Assembly (NCBI RefSeq): GCF_040436365.1
Contig: NZ_AP026369.1
Coordinates: forward strand, 124,001-188,000
Length of the DNA stretch: 64,000 bases
Source of the DNA: Hydrogenimonas sp. SS33
GTDB lineage: Bacteria; Campylobacterota; Campylobacteria; Campylobacterales; Hydrogenimonadaceae
Direction: 5' to 3'
The translations under genes and the position numbers were made by a program. Shown piece by piece: positions 28,799-40,267 of the stretch (positions are counted from its first letter, which is position 1; each line of letters begins with the position of its first letter). The notes beneath the pieces were generated by a model. It made no database searches. It saw nothing but the letters and a program-made list of their open reading frames with translations, and had not been told where the DNA came from.

Positions 28799-29041
28799 TT
28801 ACTTCGTCGAGCAGTTGGTGTCGACCGTGCCGTCACGGTTGAACTTCACGGTCACACCGAACTGTTCGTCGTCGTCGTATTTGATGTAGCGGACACCGTC
28901 GATGCAGAAGTAGCTGACATTGTCCACATCGATTTCACCCGCTTCCACGTCGGCGGCTTTGACCTGATGCTGTTTGTCGCTGCAGCCGCTGAAAAGGGCC
29001 AAAGCAGAGACCAGAGCAAGGAAGTAGAATGTCTTTTTTAT
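28799..29041 (-). CDS. Small lipoprotein with apparent AUA start codon
   Basis: 80 residues if translation starts at the ATA at 29041-29039, which lies six bases after AAGGA. That gives an ideal lipoprotein signal: KKTFYFLALVSALALFSGC, with lipobox LFSGC. In this frame there is an in-frame stop 12 bases upstream of the ATA, and no ATG or GTG exists up to the lipobox. The only standard start, TTG at 29002, would delete the whole signal peptide. The mature part (CSDKQHQVKAADVEAGEIDV, YFCIDGVRYIKYDDDEQFG) is acidic with two further Cys and resembles nothing I recognise. It lies between cysE and aspC. Confidence 0.65.
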   Translation of the reverse strand: MKKTFYFLALVSALALFSGCSDKQHQVKAADVEAGEIDVDNVSYFCIDGVRYIKYDDDEQFGVTVKFNRDGTVDTNCSTK

Positions 29042-29067
29042 CGATTTTCCTTTTTAGAATGGAATAG

Positions 29068-29772
29068 TTATTGTTTCATAGACTGGATGAAAGCTTCATA
29101 AATCTTGTCGAGCTCCTGCTCTTTTTCCAGTAGCTCCCTGTGTTCGGGTGTCAGGATATGCTCGATCAGTGCCACCCGTTTGAGAAGGTATTCGAAAAGC
29201 TCCTTGTTGATGTCGGGAATCTTGTTGTGGCTGAGGGGGCTCTTGTCGCGCCCTTTGGTGACCACCTTGGCGGGAATGCCCACGGCGGTCGATTCGGGCG
29301 GGACGTCACGGACCACGACGGAGTTGGCGCCGATTTTGGAGTTGTAGCCGATGGTAATGTTGCCAAGCACCTTTGCACCCGCGCCGATGACCACGTTCCG
29401 CTCCACCGTCGGGTGCCGCTTTCCGGGGTTGAGGGAGACCCCGCCGAGCGTCGCCCCCTGGTAGATCGTCACGTCGTCGCCGATGATGGCGGTCTCCCCG
29501 ATGACCACGCCGATCCCGTGGTCGATGAAGACCCGTCGCCCGATGGTGGCGGCGGGGTGGATGTCGATGTTGGTGATGAGCTGGGAGAGGCCCATCAGGA
29601 AGCGGGCGAAGAGCTTGAACCCCTTGCGGTGGAACCAGTTGGCGATGCGGTAGTTGGCCACGGCCCAGACGCCGGGATAGTTGAAAAAGAGTTCGAAGCG
29701 CGAGTGGATCGCCGGGTCCCGCCGATAGACACTTTTGAAATCTTCGGCGATCAGTTTGAATACGGAAATCAA
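29068..29772 (-). CDS. cysE: Serine O-acetyltransferase CysE
   Basis: Makes O-acetylserine from serine and acetyl-CoA, the first step of cysteine synthesis. N-terminal helical part (FELFFNYPGVWAVANYRIAN) precedes the left-handed beta-helix: DIHPAATIGRRVFIDHGIGV has the catalytic His, GATLGGVSLNPGKRHPTVER is the extended loop, VVIGAGAKVLGNITIG the terminal coils. 234 residues. It starts 3 bases after the speA stop. Confidence 0.94.
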   Translation of the reverse strand: MISVFKLIAEDFKSVYRRDPAIHSRFELFFNYPGVWAVANYRIANWFHRKGFKLFARFLMGLSQLITNIDIHPAATIGRRVFIDHGIGVVIGETAIIGDDVTIYQGATLGGVSLNPGKRHPTVERNVVIGAGAKVLGNITIGYNSKIGANSVVVRDVPPESTAVGIPAKVVTKGRDKSPLSHNKIPDINKELFEYLLKRVALIEHILTPEHRELLEKEQELDKIYEAFIQSMKQ

Positions 29773-33903: not shown

Positions 33904-34427
33904 GCGTCCTCGATTCTCCAGCGTTTGTAGAGCCGGTTGGGAATGCCCAGCAGGTCGAACCATTTGCCGACGATGAAACGCTCCATCTCCTCCAGATTCG
34001 ACTGTCGGCTGTAGTACCCCATGACGGGCGGGGCGATGATGACCCCCAGGCGCGAAAGTTTGAGCATGTTTTCCAGGGCGATGGCGCTGTAGGGCATCTC
34101 CCTGGGGGCGAGCAGGAGGGGCCTGCGCTCCTTGATCATCACGGCGGCGGCGCGGGTGGTCAGGTTGTCGGCGATGCCGCAGGCGATTTTGGCGAGGGTG
34201 TTCATGCTGCAGGGGGTGACCATCATGGCGTCGCTGGGAAAGGAGCCCGAGGCCACGGGAGCGCCGATATCGCTGTTGTCGTAGCGGCGCAGGTTCTCGT
34301 TTTCCAGCACCTTTTGCGCATTGTCGGAGAGGATGAGATAGGGGGTCACCTCTTCGGGGAGCAGTTCGACGGCTTTCAGGCCCAGCTCCACGCCGCTGGC
34401 GCCTGTGACGGCGACGACCAGCCTCAT
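33900..34427 (-). CDS. ubiX: Flavin prenyltransferase, UbiX family
   Basis: Makes prenylated FMN, the cofactor of UbiD-type decarboxylases in quinone synthesis. 175 residues: VVAVTGASGVELGLKAVEL is the FMN-binding start, MMVTPCSMNTLAKIACGIADN the central motif, LLLAPREMPYSAIALENM the next block, and IAPPVMGYYSRQSNLEEMER the C-terminal part. The true start is the ATG overlapping the flgA stop (ATGA); the longer frame is inside flgA. In Campylobacterota the likely use is menaquinone (futalosine pathway). Confidence 0.93.
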   Translation of the reverse strand: MRLVVAVTGASGVELGLKAVELLPEEVTPYLILSDNAQKVLENENLRRYDNSDIGAPVASGSFPSDAMMVTPCSMNTLAKIACGIADNLTTRAAAVMIKERRPLLLAPREMPYSAIALENMLKLSRLGVIIAPPVMGYYSRQSNLEEMERFIVGKWFDLLGIPNRLYKRWRIEDA

Positions 34428-35308
34428 CGCAGTTCCACCAGGCCGCGGCCTTTGACGATGCCTGTCATCACCCGTCCGTTTCCTTTCTTCACCGTGATCA
34501 TCTCTCCTCTGTACCCGTTTTTCAGTGCGATGGCGTCGAATTCGATATGGACCGCCCCTTCGTCGTAGAGGCAGTGGACCCTGTCGTGCTTTCTCACATC
34601 CGGAAGCGGCGCCGTCATCCGTTTCGTGAGTATCTCCCCCGCACGGATATTTCGCCTGGCGATAAGGCCTTTTCCATGCAGGGGCCATAGGGGCGTGTCG
34701 CCAAACTTCCTGAAAGGAAGGGTCGCTTCCGACACCGAATCCAGGGAAATGATTTTATCTTTTTTTATTTGATGATTGGCTTTATAGACCGTAATGGAGC
34801 CCTTCAGGTCGTAACGGAAAAAGTGCCTCTCTTTACCGCATTTGGCGACGAAGGTGCCATGGTCGCGTCGAAGACCGGCGGGCGTGAGACGGAGGCTGCA
34901 ACCCCTGTCGGAGGTAAGGGTGTCCCGTAAGGAGGTGGGGGCGATATGCAAAGCCTCTATTTGCAGGGAGGGGTAGCGCTTGCGGTAGGCTGCCATGAGG
35001 CTTTTGCGAAAACGGGGATAGTGCCGCGGCGGCTGAAGGTCGAAGCGAATATCGGCACTTTTGGGCGTTTCGACCCTGCACTCCGGCACCGTCTTTTTCA
35101 ATTGCGAAAGGATCTTGTAGACCGGGACAAGCGTCCGCGGCCGGTTCGGAAGGGTCAGAAGGCAGCGGCGGTCTGCTTTGAAACCGAGAGTTTCAGGCGT
35201 AATGCAGGGGGTCGTTGTGAAATAGTGGCTTTTGAGTCGGATGGTGCATTCATTTTTGGAAGCGTGGAGATTCGAAAAAAAGAGTAGGGAAAAAAAGATG
35301 AGAAAAAT
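34424..35308 (-). CDS. flgA: Flagellar basal-body P-ring assembly protein FlgA, start codon non-standard
   Basis: Periplasmic chaperone needed for P-ring assembly. The C-terminal SAF domain is clear: [20 protein letters not shown], then [20 protein letters not shown] and [16 protein letters not shown]. The N-terminus should be an export signal, and one is present ([19 protein letters not shown]), but no ATG, GTG or TTG lies between the tRNA-Gly gene and this signal. The only codon in a suitable place is ATT at 35308-35306, whose first base is the last base of the tRNA's encoded CCA. The next in-frame standard start upstream is a GTG inside the tRNA. About 294 residues with the ATT start. No Shine-Dalgarno is seen. 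Identification as FlgA is good; the start is unresolved. Confidence 0.82.
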
Positions 35309-35382
35309 GGAGCGGGAGACGGGGGTCGAACCCGCGACCCCAACCTTGGCAAGGTTGTGCTCTACCACTGAGCTACTCCCGC
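35308..35382 (-). tRNA. tRNA-Gly(GCC)
   Basis: 75 bases on the minus strand with CCA encoded. Acceptor stem GCGGGAG/CTCCCGC, D-arm GCTCAGTGGTAGAGC, anticodon loop TTGCCAA with anticodon GCC, T-arm GCGGGTTCGACCCCCGT. It lies 5 bases after tRNA-Leu and directly abuts flgA. Confidence 0.96.
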
Positions 35383-38074: not shown

Positions 38075-40267
38075 ATTTTTAAGACCGCGCTTCTTTTAAC
38101 CATCGCCATCTTTTTCATCTACGGCGCCATCGCCACCTTCCTGCCCCAAAGCGGGATGGTAGGGAGCTTCGGGACCTACCTGGGAAGCCACAATGTGGAG
38201 CTTTTCGGCTACCTCGCCTATGCCGATTTTCTTTTTCTGCTCTACCCGCTCTACCGCCTTTACAAAATGCGCAGTCTCCGGGATTTTCATATCGACACCT
38301 TCGCCGCATGGCTGCTCTTTCTCTTCTCCCTGCTCATACTGCAGGCGCTGGTGGTATCGCCTCCGATGCGGGGATGGATCGGGGCGAGCATCGTCGATTT
38401 TCTCCACCCCTACATCGGCAATGCCGGCGTCTGGCTCTTCTGGCTCATGACGCTGACCCTTTCGGGCCTCATTCTGTGGGGGGAGAAGATGCATTGGCAC
38501 TTCTCAACTCTCGGCAGCCGGTTTCCGGCCAAAAAGCGGCATCCCGAGCCCAGGGGGCAGGAGGCTTTCGACAGGGAGGAGGCGTTCGCCGCACCGGTCG
38601 AAACGAAAACGGAGTTCGAAGAGGAGGAGACTCCTCTGGAACCGGAACCGGCGGAGACGGCCGAAACCGAAGCGGAGACCCCGCCTTTCGACATTGAAGA
38701 CCAAGAGGAGAAAGAGCCTCAGATCAAACTTATCAAACGGCCGAAAACTCCTTCGAAAAAAGAGGAAGCCCCCGAACCTGCCCATGCGGAAGTGGAGATC
38801 GTCCACGAGATCGAAGAGAACAAAGCCCTCTTGAAGCAGATCGAACTGGGCGAGCAGGCGAAACCGAAGAACTTTGTCCTCCCCAAACTCGATTTCCTGC
38901 AAAAGCCGCCGAAACGGAGCCGTGAGATTAACGAAGCGGAGATCGACGCGAAGATCAAGGACCTTCTGGATAAACTGGCGAAGTTCAAGATCGAAGGGGA
39001 TGTGGTCCGCACCTACGCCGGGCCCGTCGTCACCACTTTCGAATTCAAACCTGCCGCCCATATCAAAGTCTCCAAAATCCTCAACCTCCAGGACGACCTG
39101 GCCATGGCCCTCAGGGCCCAGACCATCCGCATCCAGGCGCCGGTGCCGGGCAAGGATGTGGTGGGCATCGAAATCCCCAACAAGCAGATCGAAACGATCT
39201 ACCTGCGGGAGATTCTGGAGAACGACATTTTCAAAAAGTCAAAATCACCCCTGACGATCGCACTGGGCAAGGATATCGTCGGCAAACCGTTCGTCACCGA
39301 CCTGGCGAAACTGCCCCACCTGCTCATTGCCGGTACCACGGGCAGCGGCAAGAGCGTGGGTATCAACGCCATGATTTTGAGCCTGCTCTACCGCAACTCC
39401 CCGGACCAGCTCAAGCTGATGATGATCGACCCCAAGATGCTGGAATTTTCCATCTACAACGACATCCCCCATCTTCTCACGCCGGTCATTACCCAGCCCA
39501 AAAAGGCGATCGTGGCGCTGTCGAACATGGTGGGCGAGATGGAGCGGCGCTACCAGCTCATGAGCCAGACCAAAACCAAAAACATCGAAACCTACAATGC
39601 CAAGGCACGGAAGGAGAAGCGGGAGGAGCTGCCCTACATCGTCGTCGTCATCGACGAGCTGGCCGACCTGATGATGACGGGAGGCAAGGATGTGGAATTC
39701 TCCATCGCCCGTCTGGCCCAGATGGCCCGCGCCAGCGGTATCCATCTCATCGTCGCTACCCAACGCCCCAGTGTCGACGTTGTGACGGGGCTCATCAAGG
39801 CCAACCTGCCTTCGCGCATCAGCTACAAAGTGGGGCAGAAGATCGACTCCAAGGTCATTCTCGACGCCCTGGGCGCCGAATCGCTCCTTGGAAGGGGGGA
39901 CATGCTCTTCACGCCTCCGGGCGGCGGCGGTCTCATCCGCCTCCACGCCCCCTGGAGTAGCGAGCAGGAGATCGAGACGATCGTCGAGTTTCTCAAATCC
40001 CAGCGTGAGGCGGAATACGACGAGCATTTCCTGATGGAAGAAGAGGGCGACAGCGCCGCGGGCGGCAGCGGCACCGTCGACGACATCGACCCCCTCTTCG
40101 AAGAGGCGAAGCAGATCGTCCTGAGCGATCGCAAAAGCTCCATCAGCTATATCCAGCGCCGCCTGCAGATCGGCTACAACCGGGCGGCCCGCATCGTCGA
40201 ACAGCTCGAAAAGATGGGCGTCCTCTCCGCTCCCAACGCCAAGGGGAACCGGGAGATTCTTCAGTAG
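38075..40267 (+). CDS. ftsK: DNA translocase FtsK with apparent AUU start codon
   Basis: Septal DNA pump for chromosome segregation. With ATT at 38075 the N-terminus is FKTALLLTIAIFFIYGAIAT, the expected first membrane helix; three more follow up to residue ~135. A Pro/Glu-rich linker (about 140-240) precedes the motor: LLIAGTTGSGKSVGINAMIL is Walker A, IVVVIDELADLMM is Walker B, and the C-terminal gamma winged helix is RKSSISYIQRRLQIGYNRAA. GGAAGGA lies 7 bases before the ATT. The frame has a stop at 38033 and no ATG, GTG or TTG before ATG 38156, which would cut off the first helix. 730 residues. Confidence 0.9.
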   Translation: MFKTALLLTIAIFFIYGAIATFLPQSGMVGSFGTYLGSHNVELFGYLAYADFLFLLYPLYRLYKMRSLRDFHIDTFAAWLLFLFSLLILQALVVSPPMRGWIGASIVDFLHPYIGNAGVWLFWLMTLTLSGLILWGEKMHWHFSTLGSRFPAKKRHPEPRGQEAFDREEAFAAPVETKTEFEEEETPLEPEPAETAETEAETPPFDIEDQEEKEPQIKLIKRPKTPSKKEEAPEPAHAEVEIVHEIEENKALLKQIELGEQAKPKNFVLPKLDFLQKPPKRSREINEAEIDAKIKDLLDKLAKFKIEGDVVRTYAGPVVTTFEFKPAAHIKVSKILNLQDDLAMALRAQTIRIQAPVPGKDVVGIEIPNKQIETIYLREILENDIFKKSKSPLTIALGKDIVGKPFVTDLAKLPHLLIAGTTGSGKSVGINAMILSLLYRNSPDQLKLMMIDPKMLEFSIYNDIPHLLTPVITQPKKAIVALSNMVGEMERRYQLMSQTKTKNIETYNAKARKEKREELPYIVVVIDELADLMMTGGKDVEFSIARLAQMARASGIHLIVATQRPSVDVVTGLIKANLPSRISYKVGQKIDSKVILDALGAESLLGRGDMLFTPPGGGGLIRLHAPWSSEQEIETIVEFLKSQREAEYDEHFLMEEEGDSAAGGSGTVDDIDPLFEEAKQIVLSDRKSSISYIQRRLQIGYNRAARIVEQLEKMGVLSAPNAKGNREILQ

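Follow-up and report, generated by a model that had tools for sequence, protein, structure and literature searches.

A small lipoprotein gene of Hydrogenimonas with an apparent AUA start codon, and putative near-cognate isoleucine starts in its order

The window analyzed here, a stretch of 64,000 nucleotides from Hydrogenimonas sp. SS33, carries on its minus strand a small gene of 80 codons whose reading begins at ATA (Table 1). Translated from this codon, the product comprises IKKTFYFLALVSALALFSGC and, after it, approximately 60 residues of mature protein. The features of a type II signal peptide are recognizable by eye (IKK-TFYFLALVSALALFSG-C), with a charged N-terminus, a hydrophobic stretch, and small residues leading to the cysteine. 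An earlier reading of this DNA from its sequence only had described the start region as AAGGA, six bases and ATA, and had placed the first conventional codon, TTG 29002, inside the signal peptide, such that its use would remove the signal. The coordinates, strand, frame and stop are all as it claimed, and reading of the frame confirms the position of the TTG. No ATG, GTG or TTG occurs in this frame between the bounding TAA (29056-29054) and TTG 29002, which lies six residues ahead of the lipobox cysteine; its product, MALFSGC..., would be devoid of the charged region and of most of the hydrophobic region. The gene therefore possesses an in-frame ATA behind a Shine-Dalgarno sequence, and no conventional start that would preserve its N-terminus. 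The upstream neighbor, by its sequence a serine acetyltransferase (cysE) gene, ends with a TAA located 26 bases upstream of the ATA, and the gene that follows the lipoprotein gene presumably encodes an aminotransferase. The cysE-like gene itself seemingly starts with TTG (window 29774-29772, minus strand), close to the place of an ATG in the relative G016.

Table 1. Positions of the lipoprotein gene, its start region and the other genes compared (window coordinates unless a contig is given).
Feature	Position	Strand	Basis or remark
Small lipoprotein gene, 80 codons	28799..29041	minus	start ATA, stop TAA; sequence and orthologues
ATA, inferred start codon	29039..29041	minus	faces ATG in 3/3 orthologues
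Shine-Dalgarno sequence AAGGA	29048..29052	minus	read from sequence, duplex energy
Spacer between AAGGA and ATA, 6 bases	29047-29042	minus	sequence
Stop codon TAA of lipoprotein gene	28801-28799	minus	sequence
Signal peptide IKKTFYFLALVSALALFSGC, including lipobox cysteine	28982..29041	minus	sequence; G19 and C20 invariant in 4/4
TTG, first conventional start codon in frame, within signal peptide	29000..29002	minus	
In-frame TAA bounding the lipoprotein ORF upstream	29054..29056	minus	
Serine acetyltransferase (cysE)-like gene, upstream neighbor	29068..29772	minus	
flgA	34424-35308	minus	Pfam ChapFlgA
tRNA-Gly	35308-35382	minus	flgA frame runs out of the tRNA
rnpA	G000:C1:299457-299798, outside window	plus	loci L201-L217
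BatA-like von Willebrand domain gene	G000:C1:81972, outside window	plus	loci L123-L137

A Pfam search with the lipoprotein returned nothing above the cut-off, and the known families YgdI/YgdR and EexN (NCBIfam) scored 16.5 bits against a cut-off of 42 and 14.5 bits against a cut-off of 33, respectively, in each case through the signal-peptide region only. A search of solved structures gave chance matches of approximately 20 residues with E-values of 0.08 or worse, some of them to Shiga toxin B chains, and these were not regarded as relatives. The predicted structure of the lipoprotein is of low confidence (mean pLDDT 52, pTM 0.27).

Homologues were sought in 60 genomes, the organism's own included; the genus set comprises its own and 17 further genomes (18). 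Matches with E-values of 0.01 or better were found in eight of the 60, and were full-length in four, again counting its own. A profile search recovered the lipoprotein from the same four of the 18 Hydrogenimonas genomes, which marks the gene as accessory (locus L009, being the same contig as L003, was counted once). Weak matches elsewhere in the genus, with E-values no better than 0.0018, cover solely or almost solely the signal peptide, and were rejected as orthologues. The nearest named relative of the genome is a Hydrogenimonas metagenome-assembled genome.

The three full-length Hydrogenimonas orthologues are 76, 71 and 65% identical to the lipoprotein, and in all three loci the end of a cysE-like gene precedes the lipoprotein gene. 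Alignment of these orthologues, which the sequence-only reading had proposed as a check, fixes the position of the start: they begin with ATG AAA AAA, ATG AAA CGT and ATG AAA AGA, and the gene in the window with ATA AAA AAG. Because ATG occupies the homologous codon in all three, the ATA marks the true start position. At the other end of the signal peptide, glycine 19 and the lipobox cysteine 20 are invariant in all four sequences. As ATA is found at the homologous codon in none of the three orthologues, no claim of a conserved regulatory start is made; rather, either ATA has replaced ATG within this lineage or one base is in error.

The mature part of the lipoprotein is conserved, with no clear decay. 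Across all six pairs among the four sequences, pN in this part is 0.05-0.15 and pS is 0.49-0.78, and with a third genome as reference, four mature changes are unique to this lineage versus three in the nearest relative. The corresponding comparison of the signal peptide gives five unique changes here versus none in the nearest relative, which might be an early relaxation. With an assumed anti-Shine-Dalgarno sequence, the duplex energy is -5.8 kcal/mol here and -5.9, -1.1 and -5.7 kcal/mol in the orthologues. Since the pairing energy equals that of two relatives and exceeds that of the third, no compensating gain in Shine-Dalgarno strength is seen; a switch to GUG or UUG tends to bring such strengthening, according to the part of the source available (PMC5622118).

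Start codons were also compared along two collinear stretches amounting to 404 kb (18% of the genome) and 302 gene pairs (159 + 143), with a 55% identity filter applied to the set of 143 but not to the set of 159. In 184 of the 302 pairs, a conventional start preceded by a Shine-Dalgarno sequence is common to both genomes. The other 118, mostly pairs with a weak Shine-Dalgarno sequence or with homology that enters an overlapping gene, were inspected by way of listed near-cognate sites, so that some near-cognate starts may have escaped. A second pairing of ATA with ATG (G000:177676-178626) was dropped, being located upstream of the ATG that belongs to the gene concerned. The ATG-versus-ATA difference at the lipoprotein is thus a singular event, which is compatible with one real mutation and also with one error.

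The explanation that we favor, with a probability of roughly 0.6, is that the start codon of the lipoprotein gene shifted from ATG to ATA recently in this lineage, and that AUA still supports real but weak initiation, such that less lipoprotein is made. The intact frame, the retained Shine-Dalgarno strength and the homologous ATG in the three orthologues all argue for a genuine start at this codon. In such a mechanism, the ribosome would bind AAGGA and the initiator fMet-tRNA would pair with AUA although the third position is mismatched. Initiation would then reach only part of the rate seen with AUG, about one tenth if the gene behaves like the cases measured in Staphylococcus aureus. Ribosomes finishing the cysE-like gene so close upstream may help by reinitiating. 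The lipoprotein would still be produced with the complete signal peptide, in smaller amounts.

Two other explanations merit weighing, each of them considerably less probable. As the ATA is limited to one genome, a single wrong base arising from sequencing or assembly would explain everything, and the gene would then truly begin with ATG; this is unlikely, although one substitution suffices to restore the codon of all three orthologues, and although this is the sole case in the 302 gene pairs in which a relative's Shine-Dalgarno-preceded ATG faces ATA. Against it, the genome sequence forms a single closed contig (2,254,567 bases) with a stated completeness of 100%, and a comparison of 204 kb with G016 revealed one possible frameshift on its own side and three on the other. 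The low frameshift count and the closed genome together indicate that gross errors are few, which still leaves room for a single substitution. Slightly less probable again is that the ATA is a start-loss mutation, with no useful translation and a gene that is turning into a pseudogene. An accessory gene present in four of 18 genomes is one that can be lost, the five unique signal-peptide changes would accord with such a loss, and a very recent mutation would leave an identical picture; conversely, the frame is intact, the Shine-Dalgarno sequence is kept, and the mature part is conserved to the same degree as that of the nearest relative. Translation from TTG 29002 into a protein of 67 residues lacking an export signal is highly improbable. 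While this is a conventional codon and the likely choice of gene finders, the charged and hydrophobic regions that it would forfeit are kept in all three orthologues, and no AAGGA-like sequence is present at the proper distance upstream of it.

The recent, weakly used AUA start that we prefer for the lipoprotein can be set beside the other near-cognate isoleucine starts that the sequence-only reading had proposed, for ftsK and possibly for flgA. The window's ftsK (Pfam FtsK_SpoIIIE, FtsK_alpha, FtsK_gamma and FtsK_4TM) has AAGGA, seven bases and then ATT at 38075-38077 on the plus strand, with no conventional start near the N-terminus. The proposal for this gene is supported throughout the genus, where all 15 readable loci (16 examined) have such a codon, ATT in 14 and ATC in one. 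For the wider order, a rule was applied that takes the best Shine-Dalgarno match and then the in-frame codon 5-9 bases further on, whatever its identity. Among the ftsK loci (L055-L070, L081-L102, L143-L182), the 77 examined in this way yielded 68 that were scorable, six that were unplaced, and three without a Shine-Dalgarno sequence by this rule. The codon at the start position is ATT in 29 of the 68, ATA in 10, ATC in eight and TTG in nine; in the remaining 12, it is a codon beside the likely start (for example, AAG after TTG or GTG). An isoleucine codon therefore occupies the ftsK start position in 47 of 68 scorable loci, with the ATA cases falling in three families, and ATG in none of the 68 by this codon-blind rule; a separate reading of genome L177 found an ATG at nine bases. 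The ftsK gene of E. coli K-12 starts with TTG. A narrow literature search combining ftsK with AUU or non-canonical start codons returned nothing on the subject by title.

The case of flgA is divided. In 12 of the 13 junctions that could be read in the genus (14 examined, with L196 misplaced by the script and not among the 13), its first codon after the tRNA-Gly gene is ATT or ATC, and the tRNA was confirmed in all eight loci tested; yet no Shine-Dalgarno sequence precedes the ATT or ATC, which is built from the A of the tRNA CCA and a following TT or TC. A GTG within the tRNA-Gly is in frame with flgA. In rnpA, by comparison, AAAGG, nine bases and ATT directly follow the rpmH stop in all 11 readable loci (17 were examined, and six were not located by the search patterns), and none of the 11 has a conventional start within at least 19 codons of the ATT, so that rnpA seems to begin with ATT. 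The BatA-like gene has an apparent start of CTG in three and ATC in two of its five readable genus loci (14 examined, nine not located by the search patterns). The infC gene of the same genome (L072) has an apparent start at TTG or at a later ATG, with an overlap into the region after thrS, and no ATT start of the E. coli kind was found there on reading.

The ftsK data strengthen the broader suggestion that near-cognate isoleucine codons are tolerated. The accompanying statement, that all such starts are on exported or membrane proteins, fails, because the cytosolic RNase P protein encoded by rnpA also seems to be started with an invariant ATT. Near-cognate starts thus appear to be a repeated feature that extends beyond exported and membrane proteins, and from the loci compared, those with isoleucine codons look native to the order. 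A relaxed initiation factor IF3 was considered as their cause. More tentatively, and with the balance of probability against it, initiation at AUU, AUA and AUC might be normal in Hydrogenimonas and much of the order, as a long-kept setting of protein level seen in ftsK across many families and seemingly in rnpA, flgA and the BatA-like gene within the genus; the lipoprotein gene would then be a recent single-base recruit, its AUA being tolerated by the machinery.

A lineage-limited change from ATG to ATA in a conserved gene constitutes a natural test of how far start-codon decay is tolerated before loss. A gene finder that accepts no start codons other than ATG, GTG and TTG would overlook the lipoprotein gene or set its beginning wrongly, and, with graver effect, would misplace the ftsK start across the order, including in well-studied bacteria. 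The order-wide ftsK pattern renders testable the idea of near-cognate starts as conserved throttles beyond infC, for which data had been scarce. While the lipoprotein shares with the ftsK genes of the order an ATT, ATA or ATC after AAGGA or AAAGGA, its orthologues have ATG, and its single-lineage ATA therefore differs in kind from the long-conserved ftsK start.

Among known systems, E. coli pcnB reportedly has an AUU start codon. The lipoprotein gene would resemble E. coli infC and pcnB in having a near-cognate isoleucine start after a Shine-Dalgarno sequence and a low yield. It differs from them in using AUA rather than AUU, and it bears no sign of the autoregulation through IF3 that is described for infC in the portion of the literature consulted. 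IF3 throttles both the AUU of E. coli infC and the GTC of Streptomyces sigR, as far as the accessible part of the source goes (PMC5472188). The sigR start would be similar to that of the lipoprotein in holding expression low and in being overlooked by gene finders, but it is conserved and regulatory, unlike an ATA whose relatives have ATG. The closest parallels come from S. aureus, for which the available part of one study reports AUA starts in infC, ccpN and citZ, with initiation mapped for infC and ccpN (PMC13009471). Reporters of ccpN and citZ (AUA) and of cvfC1 (AUU) gave approximately 10% of the AUG level in poor medium, with ccpN reaching as much as 30% when the medium was rich (PMC13009471). 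As in the lipoprotein gene, AUA stands behind a Shine-Dalgarno sequence in these genes, and the citZ AUA is confined to strains of one lineage (PMC13009471), as the change described here seems to be. The S. aureus starts differ in that initiation has been mapped and measured and, in the case of ccpN, by conservation and an extended Shine-Dalgarno sequence, whereas the AAGGA of the lipoprotein gene is ordinary and is known from sequence. By analogy, therefore, the lipoprotein start would belong to a rare, weak kind of AUA start already documented, and would work most like that of citZ.
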